A stretch of DNA of 64,000 nt from Alternaria dauci (Eukaryota > Ascomycota > Dothideomycetes > Pleosporales > Pleosporaceae). Shown here in pieces: positions 44,809 through 59,493 of this stretch. Every line of letters begins with the position of its first letter. Position 1 is the stretch's first letter. The stretch spans positions 4,340,001-4,404,000 of the forward strand of contig NC_091273.1 of NCBI RefSeq assembly GCF_042100115.1, written 5' to 3'. The position numbers were made by a program, and so were the translations under genes. The notes below the pieces were generated by a model. It saw only the letters and a list, made by a program, of their open reading frames with translations. It did not search any database and had not been told where the DNA came from.

Positions 44809-47800
44809 TTACTCTGCCTTCTTAGTAGCCTTGGTCCTCAACTTCATAAGACCATACACCAGCGCGTAACCCGAGATGGCGAAGATGACACAGATGGCCG
44901 CATCCCTCCATCCGTAGTAGTACTCATTGAGGTTCACTGTGCGCAAGTAGTCGCGCCCATACGAGTATTGGCAAACCTTGCAGCCAGAAGTATCGTCGGG
45001 GTTGATGAGATTTGTGCCGCTTCCTGGGCCTGCTAGCCACGCTTGCAGGTAGTCACTGCAAGTTTGATTCGACGGGGGATCGAATCTGGCAAACTCCGCC
45101 TCGGAGCAGTTGATCTCCCAGTCCCAATCGGCAAAGACGAGCAGTGATCCCATGATGTAGTTGAATGGGTTGAGCCAGTAGCTGAAACAGTATTAGTAGG
45201 CTTATTCGCTAGCTTCATGGTGGTTTGGGAATATACTTACATCCAGTAACGCCAGAATTCTTGGATTTGCGCATATGGCACAAGGACACCACAGAACGAG
45301 ACGAGAGTTCCGAGGAGGAGCGGATTGACAAGTGAGGCAAAGACGGCATTGGGTGCGTAGGCTGCAATGAACTGACCGATACCCGTGTAGATGAACTGGT
45401 AGATGAGCATGACGAAGAAGATGGCGCCTGCCTTGTCCGAATCGCCGGGAAGACCGGCAGTGTAGTAGAAGCAGACAAAGTAGAGAACAGCGCAGATGAT
45501 GAGGTACGGGATCTCCGAGACGATAAGGCCGGTAACGAAAGCGATCCACGAGTACATCTTCGACTTCTTCTCACGAGTTTCGTAGATGTCGCGACGGTCG
45601 ATGAAGAGCGGTTGCAATTGCGCAATAACACCTGGGGCAACGAAAATGTAGTTGAACAGAGAGAAGAGGACAATTTGCTGGTCGGCTACAGTGTCGCCAA
45701 TCATCCAGAAACTGAAACCAATAAAGAGCGCGATACCAATGTGGAGGGCGAACTTGTTGTTGACGTAGTCAATGTTGCGGTACATGCTGACGTTTGCCCT
45801 GTGCGTAACAATCTTGGTCTGAGTCCAGAGATCCGTGGCGAACTCGTGGCCGTCGTCCGTGGTTCCAGGCGCTTTACCAGCAGCGTCAGTGATGATGTGG
45901 TCGAGGTCTTGATGCATGCGTGTCGCTTCAGGTGACTCAAGCCAGACTTGATGCCAGTCTTTTCCGTGTGTGCCAGTTACCACGTCGATCATATGTTCCG
46001 CAGGGTTGGCGTTGGGAGGGCATGGAGCGCCGTATCGACCAAAGTACTCCTTAATAGTCGCTGCGTTGTCACCGATGTCACCAAAGTAGACAGTCTTGCC
46101 ACCCTTCGCAAGGAGCAAAAGAGTATCGAATTGAGCGAAAAGAAGGGCGGAAGGCTGATGAATGGTGACCAAGATGGCTTGGCCAACGTCCGCGAGCTTG
46201 CGAAGGAAACGGACAGTGTTGAAGGCGGCCTGACCATCCAATCCAGCTAGACAATGTTAGTGGCGCACTAAGAGTATGGCTATATGTACTTACAAGTTGG
46301 TTCATCGAGGAAGATCAAGATCGAAGGCTTCGAAACAAGCTCAACACCAATAGTGACACGCTTGCGCTGCTCGACTGACAAGCCTGCTCCAACACGACCA
46401 ATCAAAGTATGCTCCAAGTCGTGTAGTTCAAGCAAATCGATGATAGTGTCGACATAGGCTAATTTCTCCTCACGGGGAATGTCCCGGCTTTGGCGAAGGA
46501 GGGCAGAAAACTCAAGCGCCTCTCGGACAGTCGCAAAAGGCTCGTGGACATCGAGTTGCTCGCAGTAACCGGCGGAACGTTGGAACGAAACAGGGAGTGG
46601 TCGGCCATCAACTAAGATCTCGCCGTGAATAGTACCGTCAGTCTTGCGTTGAGCCAAGACATCAAGAAGAGTTGTCTTGCCAGCACCAGATGAGCCCATC
46701 AAAGCTCCCAACATACCAGGTTTGACGTAACCATGAACATTGTCCAAGAGGGTGCGGTCGCCAGATGGGGTCTTGACAACGTACGAAAGATTGCGCCAGG
46801 TGAAGACGGAAGTGTTGCGCATAAGGTTGGCACCCAAGTCTCTGTTTCCAGTACCGTCCTCCTTGGAGCCGTCTGTTCTGGGTGCTTTCTCATTCGCTTG
46901 GGCTTCCACGTCACTGGGTGTGATAGAGTTGGGAACCTTTGTCTTGTTCTCACGGGGGATCAGGAGAGATCCTCCAGAACTGGCTGTGTCATCCCATCGG
47001 AGTGTGAAGAAAATCGTGAGGGCGATGAAGAGAAACCACCAGGCAAACAAGATACCAACGTTTCGCCAGATGTTGTCCTTGGAGTAGGAGAGACTCGCAA
47101 GGTAATCATCACCACTGACCACGGTAGCACCAGGCCTAGCTCCGGCGACACCTGCGCAGGCTTGGTGGGCACCGTCCTGGTACTGAGGGAGGAAGTTCGG
47201 AATCAGGTTGGCATTGACGCAAGGAATGTCTGTTCCGGAGAACTCGTTCGCCATCAAGGACTCAAATCCGTAAGAGAGCGGGTCAATCCAGTAGATCCAG
47301 ACGAACCATGGGTGCATGTTGGGCTTGGGAATCTGGTAGCCGATGTATAGGATAAGAGCTGTTACCGAGAAACCCGAGACCTTGGAGGCAGCGTCGAAGT
47401 TGGGGAAGGCGGCACCAATCATGCGGAAGAACGCAGTCATGACAAAGGTGACGAGATACACAATGAACCTGTGGAATCGTGTTAGTATATAGCATCGATG
47501 CAGCAAGCTCGCTCGTTACTTACCAAGTGGTGAAGAAAGCAGCAGCTGTAGCCTTGAGAGCCACCATCCAGTACAAAACAACCATGAACACGGTTACTTG
47601 GAAGAACAAAATCGGCACATCAGCTGTGATCTGTGCGATACAGAAAGCCGCGGGGTTGTAGAAAGCAAAGTTTTTGTGTTTTGCCAGGATGGGGCGACCG
47701 AAGAAGGAGTCTGTGACTTCGGACATGGCCAGCAGCGCGTTGAACAGCAGAGCCAAGAATAGGGCTCCTCCCTTTACGAACAGACCGGATGAATTGGCGG

Positions 47801-49326
47801 GAGCGTTGTAGAAAAGAGAACCGGCAATCTATCAAAGTAAAAGTCAGTAAAAGTTGAGCTTGGAGATGTAGGTGGACACTTACAAGTGCTTGGACGAGTG
47901 TTGAACCTTGCTTGATGATAAAAGTCGCCTTGTCACCCCAGAGGATCTGGTACTGTCGAGTGACGCAAGCCTTTACTTGGTCGTGGAATGAGACAGTCAT
48001 GGGCGACGATGCTGGAAGGCGATTAGACTTGTCCATCGCTATGGCTTCCATAAACAACTTGGTGTTGATCTTTGCCGCTTCACTCGTGGGGTATGACAGT
48101 TCCTGCTCCATAGCAGCCTTGATGGGAGACCGTTGGTAAGCCAACTCCAGCTCGATGTTGTTGCGTGGGAAGCCTTCAAATCCGGGGCGGATCTGTCGCT
48201 CAGCAGGTACCGTGACACCGGTCAAGTAGTCGGCGACGTTGGCGCCCTCACTGCAGATAAAGCCCTGCTCCTCCATGAAAGGACGGGCTTGTTCGCGGGT
48301 GCCGTAGAACACTTGCTTGCCTTCGTCTAGTACGAGGACTTTATCGAAAAGGTCGTAGATGCCGTTACCTGCCTGGTACAAGGTAACAATTGTGGCGATT
48401 CCCATTGCGTCTGTTAGACACCTGAGAGCACGAGTATACTCCAAGGCTGTGCTGGCATCTAGACCACGTGTGGAGTTGTCCCAGCAGGCTACGCTAGCGC
48501 GGTTGGCCAAAGTCTCAATGATAGAGACTCGTTTGCGCTCTCCGCCAGAAACACCACGGACAAAGGCATCGCCGACTTTGGTATCTTCGGTGTGGGAGAT
48601 ACCCATGGAGTCCATCAGGAACGACTTGAACTTCTGACGATACTCCTCGGGGGTTGCGGAATCCTTCGGTAGAGTGTTTGGGATAGTGAGTCTCGTAGCA
48701 AAATCCATAGTCTTGCCTACTGTGAGGGTAGGAAAGAAGAGCTCCTCTTCGGTGTTCATGACAATGCTGCCACGGTATTTCTGAGCTTCGATGTGGTCCA
48801 TAGAACCGAAGTGTACATCGCCTTCGACTTGGGCATAGCCCTTTCGCCTATTGGCAAGCATCTTCAGTAGAGTGGTACATCCGGAACCAGGCCTTCCTAG
48901 AACCAGCAGCATCTCGCCAGGCTGAACGCTGCCAAAACTGTTTTCGAGGATGGGCTTCAGTTCAGGTTTCTGTCGTGACTCCCTGATCTGCTGCGGGATG
49001 TTGAACTGACTCAGCACGTTCTCCTGCAAACGTGCGTCGGCAGGAACCACCTTGACGGTTAGTCCACTCCATGTGACTCCTAGTCTTCGTCCTTCTGTTG
49101 GGTCGTTTTGATGGATGTTCTTGACGTCGTTGGCAAGTCTCCATTCTTCCACCTTCGTCTTGGCGGAATCGCTGTCTGTGATGTCTTCTTCCAGTTCTCG
49201 CTCTCGCTCCCGCTCCATGTCATCATCATGTCGTGATTTGCCAGAGAAGGTGCGGGATAGTGTTCGCATGATTTCTTCGCCAGCGCCAGAGCCTATGTTG
49301 TAGGCACTGCTTCTCCTTCGCTCCAT
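44809..49326 (-). CDS. Full-size PDR-type ABC transporter (ABC-G)
   Basis: Exons 47884-49326, 47524-47828, 46294-47468, 45241-46246 and 44809-45181, 1433 aa. Introns are 47829-47883, 47469-47523, 46247-46293 and 45182-45240, all GTAAGT-type with consistent phases (0, 2, 1, 2). Domain order is NBD1-TMD1-NBD2-TMD2. NBD1 has GRPGSGCTT about 144-152, Cys replacing the Walker A Lys as usual in fungal PDR pumps, and VSGGERKR about 259-266. NBD2 has GSSGAGKTT about 841-849, LSVEQRKR and FLDEPTSGLD, whose Ser codon is split by an intron. The tail ends with a membrane helix ([20 protein letters not shown]). Family members export drugs, plant defence compounds and own metabolites across the plasma membrane. 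Confidence 0.96.
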
Positions 49327-51354: not shown

Positions 51355-51390
51355 GCATCGGTGGTTTAGTGGTAAAATTAGCCGTTGCCA

Positions 51391-51407
51391 TCCTTCACAG
51401 GACAGTT
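51391..51407 (+). other. Canonical tRNA intron (37/38)
   Basis: 17 nt, tccttcacaggacagtt, in the standard eukaryotic nuclear tRNA intron position just 3' of the anticodon. Confidence 0.75.
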
Positions 51408-51426
51408 TCGGCTAGCCCCGGGTTCG

Positions 51427-51480
51427 GTAAGTTCACCTAAATCATCTCCAGTTCGACTCATTGTTCTAACAAAAGCATAG
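51427..51480 (+). other. Spliceosomal-type intron inside the tRNA T-loop
   Basis: 54 nt that begins GTAAGT, holds TTCTAAC (branch site, ending 11 nt before the 3' end) and ends CATAG. Its size and signals match the mRNA introns of the neighbouring genes. Exact removal restores TTCGATT. It also holds GTTCGACTC at 51451-51459, a match to the Pol III B-box core GWTCRANNC. The boundary is ambiguous by one base (G at both ends), but the GT-AG reading is natural. Confidence 0.75.
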
Positions 51481-51496
51481 ATTCCCGGCCGATGCA

Positions 51497-53060
51497 ACGA
51501 GCAGCTGCAGCAATTCTTTTTGCGGGTGTGGGGGTCTGTCATGGTAGAGGTGGTAAACAGGCATGGTTGTAGGGGACGACAAAGATTATACTCCAATTTC
51601 CTCCCGGAAGTTGCAATGCAATGCCTGATTTGTTTTGTTTTGGCTGCCGGCCGCAAGTTTCAGGTCCCAGGTCCCAGGTGTGCTTATGGCGTGCTCAACC
51701 GGGCGGAATGTTGCAGGTGAGTTACGACCGTAAGCTATGTGTTAGTGCTCACTAGTGGGGCTCATGCGATCCGTAGCCCGGATAACACTGGGACTCATGC
51801 ACCGCACTATCGCTGGGCCACAAGTTGTTTACTCATATCTTGTACGCATTTCGTCCTTCGACTATTTCTGTTTATTCATCATCATTGCGCATGGCAGCTG
51901 CGGCTCTGTTCTCTGCCTGTTGAGGATTGCGCCATTGAACATACCCGCCCACGTTATCTACTAGGTAATAGCTGGTTATCTTGGTAGTCTTGACTTCCAC
52001 CGCGAAGAGAATTACAAAGCGAGCCGCAGTATCACTTCGCATCATTGACAAGAAATCAATCAGTCGAGTACACCTGCATCTTCTCGCGACTTCCAAGGTC
52101 CGCTTGGAGACTTCTGAGCCCCTGAACAATCGTAGGAGGATCGGCGTAGACGGTCCGTCGTCACGCCACTACCAACAAAGCTTATGGGTTGCATAGATGT
52201 GTGCTGTGAATCTCGACACAGTGGTTCCAGTGCGTCAGTCTGTGGGCACACGATAGTCATAGGAAGAAAGAATGGCCATACAACCTACACTGCTTCGGTG
52301 ATCCACGGCTCGTCACACTCACTTGTGAGAACTACCCCTTACGATTGAGCGACGGCATGTCGATCCGGGTCAGCAGCCACAGCTGAGCTCTATGATTGGT
52401 TTGGCCGACTCCTCTGTGACCGGGCTACAACTCGAGTTAGCTACTTGGGGCATGGGCGCCACATTCAACTCTTTGAGAAAGCTTTGAATGCATATGCTGG
52501 GCTCAGGTTCCATGCTACATCACAAGTTCTAGTGTCCGAAAATTGGGTAGTGCGGCCTGGATCTCGAGCACTTCAAGGCGTGCGAAAACATCATTCCTTC
52601 CAGCGAGACAGTGGACGCAGAAGACCTGCGACTAAGTGTGATTGAAACCCGTGGCGATGAGCGGTACGCTGATCATCTCAGCACGGGTGCTGATATGTCT
52701 GACAAATGTGTCGCTTTTGTGTTGCACCATACAAAGAACGGACGGAAGTAGGATCATCAAGCAGTCAAACTGCTCTTCATGATTTGTTTCACTAGATTGC
52801 CCCTCAAAGGTCACTCTGATTCTACCAGAGTGTAATGTTTGTTACCTCAGTAGGGATACAATGGGTTGGAATCACGTGTCGGTTTTATGACAGTCATGCT
52901 CTACAAGGTAGCTTGCTTGTGGAACATCTGCCCTCCTCATGAAGAGATACCAGAGACAAGCCAGCATGCGTGTGATTCAGAGCAAGCTAGAAATCACTGC
53001 GTAAAAGCAGAGACGGTCGCCTTCTAGGACTGTCTTGCAAAGCTTCTCACTCAACTCATC
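51497..53060. other. Intergenic
   Basis: No protein gene recognised; includes the T5 terminator and a short tandem repeat of caggtccc near 51661-51679. Upstream region of the P450-like gene. Confidence 0.45.
51517..51521 (+). terminator. Pol III terminator
   Basis: Run of five T starting 21 nt after the tRNA 3' end. Confidence 0.6.
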
Positions 53061-54395
53061 ATGACAAGCGATTGGGAACGCCAACAAGCGGCAGCGAAAT
53101 GCGACGAGATTATCCGATTCAAACCTCATGGAGCGGAATCTAGTTATCACAATCATCAATCCGCAAGAGCTGAGCCAAACGGAAGACTCAAGCAAGTATT
53201 CGGTATCGACAACGGTTTTACCAATCCCAATCCCGCGAGTCAAAAACCGTTCATCAGGAAAGCTGAAAATCTGATGCTCAGGGCGATGAACATGAAAAGT
53301 TCAGACAGTATGGAGGACGAAGACTGGTCAAGCCTGCGAAGCCAAGCCATAAACTTCTTCGAAGAGTACATGAACAGGAAAAGCGACGAAACAGTCAACC
53401 TGGCTGAGCTTACGCAATACATTGTGCTCAGGCAGTCGCTCTGTTATCTTTTTGAAGGCGCCGCATATGCACTACGTAATGAAGACGTCTTCGATGACAT
53501 TACATTCATCGGCCGTCGTATCAATGAGCTATGGATCGAAAGCAAAACGACAAGCACTATCTCTGCAGACGAGCTGACCTGGGAGAAAGAAACAGACTTA
53601 CACAACGCGCTGCGTCGGGTGACAATGCCTCCAATGTCTGGCAGCTTCTATGGCCAGTTCCCAATCGTCGAGCAAGTCGATCCAGAAACACCCGCATCGA
53701 ACCCGATGAACCTCTTGCTCCCAGCTTACGAGACTATGTGGCGTATCGTATTACGTTGTTTCTTGGAAGTCAAGCATCGAGGCGCACATCAGGGTTCGGT
53801 GTGGACAACAGTGTTGCTCCAATACCTGGAAGATCTGAAGGACGCTAAGGTCATCAAGCCGACCGCAGCTTTCCACAGGTTTACTGAGAATGGTACCAAT
53901 AAGGTTCGGCCTGTGGAGATAGTCAAGGAAGCCCTAAGACTTTACCCTCCCACACGACGTGTTCATCGTATGTTCGACGGCGAAGCGCAATCTGCTGACA
54001 TCGAAGGCTGCCAGAGATCTGGATTACTTGGAGACACTGATCCTCTTATTTTTATCCCCGAAAGATGGCAGAGCATCTGTGAGGATGAGAGACAAGCCTT
54101 CTATGGCATAGCGGCGCAGAGCTGTACGCAGCTCCGATACAAGAACGAAAAGGACAGATTGAGGTCTGCAGAGACAAAGCAGGGATATATGCCTTTCGGA
54201 TACTTTTGTGCGGCTGATCATTCGAGCACCAAGGAGTTTGCTTCTAAAATGATCGCGTTGTTGGTAGCAGTGCTCTGTCACGGACTCGGAGACCAGTGGG
54301 AGTTGGAAGATCCTGGAAGTCTACCGTCTACTACCACCCCTCTTGACTCAGACCGTGCAGCATACGAAGGATTGCGGCTGAAGCGCAGGGGTTAA
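53061..54395 (+). CDS. Divergent cytochrome P450-like protein
   Basis: Single exon, 444 aa, no N-terminal membrane anchor. P450 landmarks are KEALRLYPPTRRVHR with E290-x-x-R293, FIPERW about 331-336, and a heme-loop-like YMPFGYFCAADHSSTKEFASKMIALLVAVL about 376-405. In canonical P450s the Cys lies seven residues after the Phe (FxxGxxxC); here FGYFC has only four. The I-helix Thr motif is not evident. It may be a P450-fold protein with altered or lost heme chemistry, like the diverged P450-like proteins found beside fungal metabolic genes. Intronless, in gene-poor surroundings, which could mean an origin by retroposition or transfer. No frameshift or stop is seen. Confidence 0.75.
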   Translation: MTSDWERQQAAAKCDEIIRFKPHGAESSYHNHQSARAEPNGRLKQVFGIDNGFTNPNPASQKPFIRKAENLMLRAMNMKSSDSMEDEDWSSLRSQAINFFEEYMNRKSDETVNLAELTQYIVLRQSLCYLFEGAAYALRNEDVFDDITFIGRRINELWIESKTTSTISADELTWEKETDLHNALRRVTMPPMSGSFYGQFPIVEQVDPETPASNPMNLLLPAYETMWRIVLRCFLEVKHRGAHQGSVWTTVLLQYLEDLKDAKVIKPTAAFHRFTENGTNKVRPVEIVKEALRLYPPTRRVHRMFDGEAQSADIEGCQRSGLLGDTDPLIFIPERWQSICEDERQAFYGIAAQSCTQLRYKNEKDRLRSAETKQGYMPFGYFCAADHSSTKEFASKMIALLVAVLCHGLGDQWELEDPGSLPSTTTPLDSDRAAYEGLRLKRRG

Positions 54396-58152: not shown

Positions 58153-59493
58153 ATGTCGGACCCCAATGCAACCCTCATCGAGTGTCGCGTTGAATACGGC
58201 CTTGGAAGTGCCATCATAGCTGCGAGGTTCTTCACGAGATGGAAGACACTGGGCTGGCGAGGTTTCTACTGGGATGACTTCTTCGCATTCTGGTCATGGG
58301 TGTTCTTCACTCTCATCTACGTTATGGTAGAGTATCTGAGTAAGTCAAACATGGCAATGAGTTCGAGATTGGTTCATCTGACTGACACTACTTCAGGTGT
58401 AATGGGTGCACCCATAGCCATGACCCAAGAACAACGCGAAGCGCTCCCACCTGCGATGCGAAAGTCAATGCGAGAGGGTGCAAAGGGCATGTTCGCCTCG
58501 TTCTACTTCTTGATCTTCCTAGTCTGGAGTCTAAAGGGCTCTCTCATCGTTCTCTTTCTCCGTTTGACGTAAGTGCAGTTCATGATGCTCTGCAAGATCC
58601 TTACTGACTATTGCGCACAGGAGAAGTACTAGACTCTACCATTATGTTCAAGCCGTAGGCGCTGTCTCAATCGCTGCATGCATAGCCGCCATCATCACTC
58701 AGACCACTCACTGCTTACCTTTGAAGAGAAATTGGCAAATTCTTCCTGACCCAGGCAAAGAGTGCTCAGCGGGCATTGTGATTAACATTGTCATTGCTGT
58801 AGGAAACGTGTTGTGGGTATTTCCTTATAGCCCATTGATCGATAACTAACGTATGATACAGGGTGGATGCTTTGCTGCTCGTGGTCCCTCTATGGATGCT
58901 GAAAGACGCAAAGATCAGTCTGTGGCGGTGAGTTTGTTTGTTGCCCAAAAGAGTCCAAACCTAATACATTTGCACAGCAAAATTCGGGTCGTCTTTCTTC
59001 TATCTCTCGGCCTCTTCGTTATGGGCATGGCCATCGCACGCTGCATCTTATCCATCGGCACCTCTGTACAAGTGGCTCTTTCTTCAGTGTGGGCACAGCG
59101 TGAAGCGGTAAGTCAACTAGTCACCTCGAAATTATAACACCAGCATCTAACTGTATGCGATAGATTGTGTCCATATTCGCAGTGAATGCACCCGTCATCA
59201 ACAGCCTCTTTCGAGCAGAAACATGGGCAACAAGACACTCCTCGCGCGGCTACGTATCCAAGGACTCCCACCGGTCGCGGACGAACACCAGCACGTTGGG
59301 AAAGAAGACAAAGAGCGGCTTTGAGATATACAAGATGACAGATATCGAGACCAGGATGACGGATTTTGAGACAAGCAGCAAAGAGAGCACATCAGAACTC
59401 TTCAAAGATCCAATGCTGTCTCCAACACCCTCGCAATGGAGATGTTCAGCGCGAGGAGCGAGTCAAGACGGTAGCCCCGGACGTATGGCTTGA
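58153..59493 (+). CDS. Pth11/rhodopsin-type seven-helix membrane protein
   Basis: Six exons: 58153-58339, 58397-58568, 58621-58812, 58862-58927, 58978-59107 and 59164-59493, 358 aa. Introns of 49-57 nt with CTAAC-type branches; all phases fit. The pattern R-(V/F)-FTRWKTLGWRGFYWDDFFAFWSW at residues about 24-50 is the conserved TM1-TM2 region with the W-D-D motif of fungal rhodopsin-domain (Pth11-like, non-CFEM) proteins. Further helices: FASFYFLIFLVWSLKGSLIVLFLR, VIAVGNVLVDALLLVVPLWML, VVFLLSLGLFVMGMAIARC. A cytosolic Ser/Thr-rich tail of about 95 residues follows. Such proteins are plasma-membrane receptors or sensors; ligand unknown. An in-frame Met 17 codons upstream is an alternative start. 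Confidence 0.9.

Follow-up and report, generated by a model that had tools for sequence, protein, structure and literature searches.

At least ten nuclear tRNA genes in the Alternaria dauci genome are very likely interrupted in the T-loop by U2-type spliceosomal introns, in what would be Pol III transcripts, and six of these genes have a further one in the D-arm. A sequence-only reading of the 64,000-nt stretch analysed here (the window) had described one gene of this kind and favoured a spliceosomal-type T-loop intron; this is still the best reading of the gene's sequence, and the genome-wide evidence strengthens it well beyond a single gene. The existence of a genome-wide class, the interruption of D-arms as well and the B-box-like sequences within the inserts are features that go beyond that reading.

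The interrupted tRNA-Gly(GCC) gene of the window

The gene lies at 51355-51496 of the window (C2:4391355-4391496, in a genome of 34.9 Mb and ten contigs) and is interrupted twice, by an anticodon intron of 17 nt and by a GT-AG insert of 54 nt within the T-loop. Its parts are as follows:

51355..51390, + strand: tRNA-Gly(GCC) exon 1, with the acceptor 5' strand, the D-arm and the 5' half of the anticodon arm
51387-51389, + strand: anticodon GCC, within exon 1
in exon 1, + strand: A box TGGTTTAGTGG, intact, at gene position 8
51391..51407, + strand: canonical 17-nt anticodon intron at 37/38 (ARAGORN i(37,17) once the T-loop insert is removed), identical in the uninterrupted paralog L002
51408..51426, + strand: exon 2, with the anticodon stem 3' strand, the variable loop, the T-stem 5' strand and T-loop TTCG
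51427..51480, + strand: 54-nt GT-AG T-loop insert, a spliceosomal-type intron, at site 57/58 (a one-base ambiguity allows 56/57)
51450..51460, + strand: B-box-like AGTTCGACTCA inside the insert, a probable B-box substitute (position-weight match, 1000 shuffles, p 0.002 uncorrected)
51466..51470, + strand: branch-point motif CTAAC, with the branch A at 51469, 11 nt before the insert 3' end
51481..51496, + strand: exon 3, with the remaining T-loop, the T-stem and acceptor 3' strands and A73
51517..51521, + strand: five-T run, a probable Pol III terminator (direct reading)

Direct reading confirmed the insert as it had been described, running GTAAGT...TTCTAAC...CATAG between TTCG and ATTCCCGG. 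When it was left out, ARAGORN called a tRNA-Gly(GCC) with a 17-nt anticodon intron, in agreement with the earlier statement that the stems pair perfectly without the insert and that an ordinary anticodon intron is also present. With the insert in place, neither ARAGORN nor Rfam reported anything at the locus, as is expected because the gene is interrupted. The unspliced gene has a mildly stable fold (z -2.05).

We also examined the other Gly-GCC genes for interruption, a comparison to which the sequence-only reading had pointed. Six Gly-GCC genes were found, five of which are uninterrupted at the T-loop; the exons and 17-nt intron of one of these, L002 on C5, are identical to those of the window gene. 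Comparison with these five paralogous genes, which have no insert, fixes the place of insertion to within one base, and the position between T-loop bases 57 and 58 that had been assigned to it agrees with this comparison.

The likeness of the insert to local mRNA introns, also claimed before, was borne out by two introns with the same GTAAGT/CTAAC/YAG anatomy, both from the ABC-transporter gene of the window, and the comparison rests on these two verified introns:

47469..47523, - strand: ABC-transporter mRNA intron of 55 nt used as a yardstick, GTAAGT...CTAAC...CACAG, frame open after removal
46247..46293, - strand: second ABC-transporter mRNA intron of 47 nt used as a yardstick, GTAAGT...CTAAC...CTAG, frame open after removal

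In one case the open frame obtained by intron removal spans an ABC motif. The transporter gene itself (45237-49326 of the window, - strand) has at least two short introns, and a candidate intron of 56 nt (GTAAGT...CTAAC...TAG) is present elsewhere in the window at 59108-59163 (+ strand).

A class of interrupted tRNA genes

A GT-AG insert was found at the identical T-loop site in ten tRNA genes of the genome: one of the six Gly-GCC genes found, two of five Glu-CTC, one of six Lys-CTT, the one Lys-TTT, all three Gln-CTG and both Gln-TTG genes. Since related inserts occupy exactly the same site in the two Glu-CTC genes and the Lys-CTT gene, the window insert is beyond chance. The Glu-CTC inserts are 54 and 53 nt long, and three other Glu-CTC genes have none. 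A second GT-AG insert, in the D-arm, is present in six genes (all five Gln genes and Lys-TTT), bringing the total to 16 inserts. In the Gln genes it lies at site 11/12 (TAGT/GTAYGT...AG/GTAGYGG, slashes marking the insert boundaries) and in Lys-TTT at site 14/15 (GGCACA/GTAAGA...CAG/ATTGG). The ordinary anticodon intron is also present in nine of the ten interrupted genes.

These genes were reached by several routes. The two Glu-CTC loci surfaced in the search for Gly-GCC genes through the similarity of their inserts, and the first Gln gene surfaced among weak matches and was read as Gln later; gapped patterns of the form TTCG-GT...AG-A led to the Lys-CTT gene, the three Gln-CTG genes, the two Gln-TTG genes and Lys-TTT. 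Raw pattern counts are meaningless alone because reversed-pattern controls match as often (9 versus 9, 15 versus 14 and 12 versus 11 for the gapped patterns; 26 versus 51 for the ungapped insert-core pattern, the control being the larger), and a match was accepted only if a tRNA surrounds it (7/9, 10/15 and 9/12). Seven matches of the first two gapped patterns were rejected in this way, no tRNA being seen around them when the flanks were read. A related gapped pattern that did not require G52 gave no further recognised tRNA gene (9 of its 12 matches being read with their flanks), and no case in the genome came from a D-arm pattern built for a different type of A box. In public DNA the T-loop insert pattern matched one viral contig and one bacterial MAG; neither match has a T-stem by eye, and both were set aside as chance. 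The Gln exon-2 pattern had no match in viral contigs.

Removal of the inserts gave a tRNA with the expected anticodon for all ten genes in ARAGORN, which called none of the ten in unspliced form. For each of the six genes that carry two inserts, removing one and leaving the other gave no tRNA, whichever was taken out (0/6 either way). On genomic sequence ARAGORN misses all five Gln genes. A 26-base pattern of tRNA-Gln exon 2, with up to three mismatches allowed, had five genome matches, all doubly interrupted, and the reversed control had none; a genome search with joined Gln exons likewise found no uninterrupted Gln gene. The single Lys-TTT gene found carries both inserts, and we found no uninterrupted nuclear copy. 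Cytosolic tRNA-Gln is something the organism cannot live without, and mitochondrial tRNA-Gln does not serve the cytosol. The inserts of the Gln genes must therefore be removable. With the inserts taken out, each of the five Gln genes keeps every one of the 17 pairs of its acceptor, anticodon and T stems. Stem variation is found at four pairs, all changed on both sides, two of which separate the two Gln-TTG genes; these compensatory changes are a mark of selection on the folded product.

These observations bear on whether the interrupted copies are dead, their inserts being random or transposed, and the tRNAs come from intact copies instead. For three of the isoacceptors intact copies do exist (5/6 Gly-GCC, 3/5 Glu-CTC and 5/6 Lys-CTT), so that the interrupted ones could individually be silent, and a review describes eukaryotic D- and T-arm insertions as mostly affecting one of many synonymous genes and as supposed pseudogenes, with those of nucleomorphs and Cyanidioschyzon merolae excepted and discussed as splicing-endonuclease substrates (PMC4090602). 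For the window Gly gene taken alone, this alternative would be plausible, given the five intact Gly-GCC copies. For the class as a whole its likelihood is very low: among the five Gln genes and the single Lys-TTT gene that were found, not one is free of such inserts. In addition, the Gly, Glu-CTC and Lys-CTT exons equal those of intact paralogs, the Gln stems vary solely by changes that keep pairing, and the inserts have diverged around their splice motifs and B boxes.

A different doubt is that intact Gln or Lys-TTT genes exist and are either missing from the assembly or missed in our searches. The whole-genome searches do give lower bounds: the family search scored 63 of 931 candidates, and 33 of the 60 listed tRNA places were read, while 20 of the 27 unread ones exceed the cut-off outside a mitochondrial-type cluster on contig C3. 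A Gln gene with more than three mismatches in exon 2 would escape the 26-base pattern, and the joined-exon search detected one of the five interrupted Gln genes, which makes it blind to genes cut in small pieces. However, five Lys-CTT genes that are divided by anticodon introns did come up in that search (best pieces E 1e-13 to 5e-12), and for this reason Gln genes of Lys-CTT-like form and similar sequence would have shown in it. Seven of the ten contigs, moreover, are 2.6-7.1 Mb long, which also speaks against missing genes. We consider such an artefact barely plausible.

The C3 cluster (C3:3344209-3399162) contains 17 family-search tRNA matches of mitochondrial character, 16 of them on one strand. 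It includes a gene with anticodon TCA, called SeC by ARAGORN, and the mitochondrial-type tRNA set includes a Gln(ttg) gene. All or much of a mitochondrial genome seems to be joined to contig C3.

Intron removal and transcription

The 16 inserts are 48-59 nt long. GT...AG ends are present in all of them and a YAG end in 15 (most T-loop inserts were found by patterns requiring GT and AG, and the cloverleaf independently fixes their ends within a few positions). All 16 have a branch motif of the form YTNAY (CTAAC in 12, CTAAT in three and CTCAT in one), and its branch A always lies 9-13 nt before the insert ends (a CTNAY-like word was required in some T-loop searches, and the Gly, Glu and all D-arm inserts were found without it).

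Introns in the D- and T-arms need not be spliceosomal, and precedent exists for their removal from eukaryotic tRNAs (PMC4090602, PMC3978253). On that model the inserts would be introns of the BHB type at unusual sites, like those of Cyanidioschyzon, nucleomorphs and archaea; the tRNA endonuclease would cut them out, and their GT-AG ends would be incidental. Many Guillardia nucleomorph introns are also without a clear BHB (PMC3978253). However, an outer exon helix of at least three pairs was found at none of the 16 insert sites (0/10 T sites and 0/6 D sites), compared with six of nine anticodon introns, which were given three allowed positions in this test, and a GT-AG boundary with a branch motif at a fixed distance in 16 of 16 cases is unexpected for endonuclease introns. 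The central helix does not discriminate because it can be drawn nearly everywhere (three or four of four pairs at 13 of 16 insert sites). We regard endonuclease removal of the inserts as highly improbable. The GT-AG and branch-point anatomy, the tRNA restored on removal and the absent exon helix argue instead for removal as U2-type spliceosomal introns, which we infer as the best reading.

The D-arm inserts of the three Gln-CTG genes (L077, L080 and L081) all share TTGCCCCCGCTAATA. Their CCGCTA and, in two of them, ATAACC complement TAGCGG and GGTTAT of the next exon; the two pairings are mutually exclusive.

An insert at the T-loop site breaks the B box of Pol III in two (GGTTCG/ATTCC). When a B-box matrix built from ten typed sites of intact genes of the same genome was applied, a B-box-like sequence was found within the T-loop insert at p<0.01 in seven of the ten genes (uncorrected, 26 stretches scanned); the seven are not independent, because the Gly, Glu and Lys-CTT inserts form one related group and those of the three Gln-CTG genes another. 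For the two Gln-TTG genes, in which the stretches were chosen after the T-loop insert had given none, a B-box-like sequence lies in the 3' trailer of the gene on C2 (p 0.006, uncorrected) and in the D-arm insert of the gene on C4 (p 0.016, uncorrected), whereas the Lys-TTT T-loop insert has a weak match (p 0.17). A B-box-like substitute is thus present somewhere in the unit in nine of ten genes at p<0.02, uncorrected. Runs of 5-7 T follow the gene in all ten cases, the first at +5 to +22 downstream except in Gln-TTG on C2 (+36), and the longest T run inside the inserts is 4. By eye, TATA-like and CATCAA-like words stand upstream of interrupted genes as they do of intact ones. The A box is intact in four of the ten genes and split by the D-arm insert in six, and in these six we found no good A-box substitute (best scores 0.1-5.2, compared with 11-14.5 for intact A boxes). 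In some plants and fungi, upstream TATA elements are reported to be important for transcribing tRNA genes (PMC3978253), and such elements may, by analogy, be how the A-box-split genes manage.

The sequence-only reading had suggested that a GT-AG intron might call for a Pol II or read-through transcript. In its favour, spliceosomal introns are normally tied to Pol II, and six genes have split A boxes without a good substitute. Against it, the B-box-like substitutes, the T runs and the upstream words resembling those of intact tRNA genes are what a Pol III unit would carry, and they led us to favour Pol III. That the introns are spliceosomal and the functional precursors come from Pol II or read-through is therefore unlikely, and Pol III is the polymerase to which these elements point.

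We propose the following pathway, in which the polymerase, the spliceosome and the order of steps are inferred from these sequence features. Pol III would be guided by the upstream TATA-like/CATCAA region and a substitute B box, located in the T-loop intron, the trailer or the D-arm intron, and would make the whole precursor and stop at the T run. The spliceosome would then remove the GT-AG introns, and only afterwards could the tRNA body fold; the folded body would be the substrate on which the tRNA endonuclease cuts the anticodon intron, and the ends would be trimmed. A wider proposal, for which we see about even chances, is that these are tRNA-specific spliceosomal introns that bring their own Pol III element, and that the essential supply of Gln and Lys-UUU tRNAs is spliceosome-dependent. 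Such introns could spread between tRNA genes without silencing them, because a new B box replaces the destroyed one.

Teaching assigns the introns of nuclear tRNAs to protein enzymes and keeps them separate from the spliceosome. If our reading is true, two splicing systems meet in one precursor and mRNA splicing would directly limit translation; the cell probably needs the mRNA-splicing machinery for essential tRNAs. Ordinary tRNA finders could report such genomes as being without tRNA-Gln, and the split and replaced B box would be a natural experiment on intron gain and tolerance inside an internal promoter. A non-canonical intron search is described for archaea in tRNAscan-SE 2.0 (PMC8450103).

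Known systems and the origin of the inserts

The open-access literature, which was our scope (most subscription papers lie outside it), yielded no paper that describes introns of the spliceosomal type in genes for nuclear tRNAs. New here would be spliceosomal introns in tRNA genes with re-created B boxes; such introns are known in other non-mRNA genes. The U6 snRNA gene of Schizosaccharomyces pombe resembles what is proposed here, in that its Pol III transcript contains an intron of the spliceosomal type (PMC10484740). It differs in that its product is an snRNA and part of the spliceosome, with an intron thought to have come from reverse splicing near the catalytic nucleotides, whereas here the introns sit, one or two per gene, in tRNAs for four amino acids. 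Frendewey and colleagues reportedly described in 1990 a B box within the S. pombe U6 intron. The rRNA introns of lichen fungi lie in a Pol I transcript and split no internal promoter, unlike those in the tRNA genes here. They are nevertheless similar in being short mRNA-type introns in a non-Pol II gene, and yeast removed one of them from Pol I rRNA transcripts (PMC8527467).

As in the present genes, introns in the D- and T-arms occur in C. merolae, nucleomorphs and Thermoproteales, and non-canonical BHB introns reach up to three per gene, with similar ones spread between isodecoders (PMC4090602, PMC3978253). C. merolae appears to be without the TFIIIC parts that bind the A and B boxes (PMC3978253), whereas here B-box-like sequences are re-created. 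Where their removal is known, the introns of these three groups are taken out by the tRNA endonuclease at BHB motifs. GT-AG ends and branch-point motifs are not a known feature of the BHB class. Introner-like elements of fungi and algae, of which related intron copies occur at several loci, bear a likeness to the inserts here. They differ from the present case, in which four related copies are found across isotypes at a single tRNA site. Introners are mentioned in PMC11782384.

These four copies belong to three isotypes. The shared words are 16 nt between the two Glu inserts, 14 nt between Glu and Lys-CTT (p 0.001) and 12 nt between Gly and Glu (p 0.002); Gly and Lys-CTT share a word of 8 nt (p 0.046), and Gly is linked to Lys-CTT through Glu. 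Shared words are clearer than whole-intron identity, which is a weak homology test, and they are partly B-box and branch-point words that are possibly alike by function. The likeness is more simply explained by copying from one tRNA gene to another, and the Gly, Glu and Lys-CTT inserts probably derive from one sequence copied in this way; gene conversion between T-arms could have done it, or perhaps an intron reverse-spliced into a tRNA that then went back into DNA. With the patterns used, no related insert was recognised outside tRNA genes in the genome; the ungapped core pattern is no proof of absence elsewhere, because it missed the Lys-CTT insert, which is one base shorter.

Downstream of the window gene and of L002 the flanking sequences are alike (0/200 composition shuffles as good), and the upstream flanks show no standout likeness (p 0.16). 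In the same way, the downstream flank of the interrupted Glu-CTC gene on C5 resembles those of L067 and L069 (0/200 shuffles as good), with the upstream flank not standing out. Because the downstream flanks are alike, interrupted and uninterrupted copies are probably duplicates in which inserts have been gained or lost since, and gain is simpler than loss because five of the six Gly genes are uninterrupted.

In the surroundings of the window gene, an open frame of 444 aa lies at 53061-54395 (+ strand), the named homologs of which are mostly annotated as cytochrome P450, hypothetical or uncharacterized; its best named relatives are Pleosporales, and the closest ones are without a precomputed Pfam domain. 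For the protein adjoining the tRNA-Gly gene, the best relatives with a name come from Decorospora, Pyrenophora, Ampelomyces and Stemphylium, of which Decorospora and Ampelomyces are Pleosporales.
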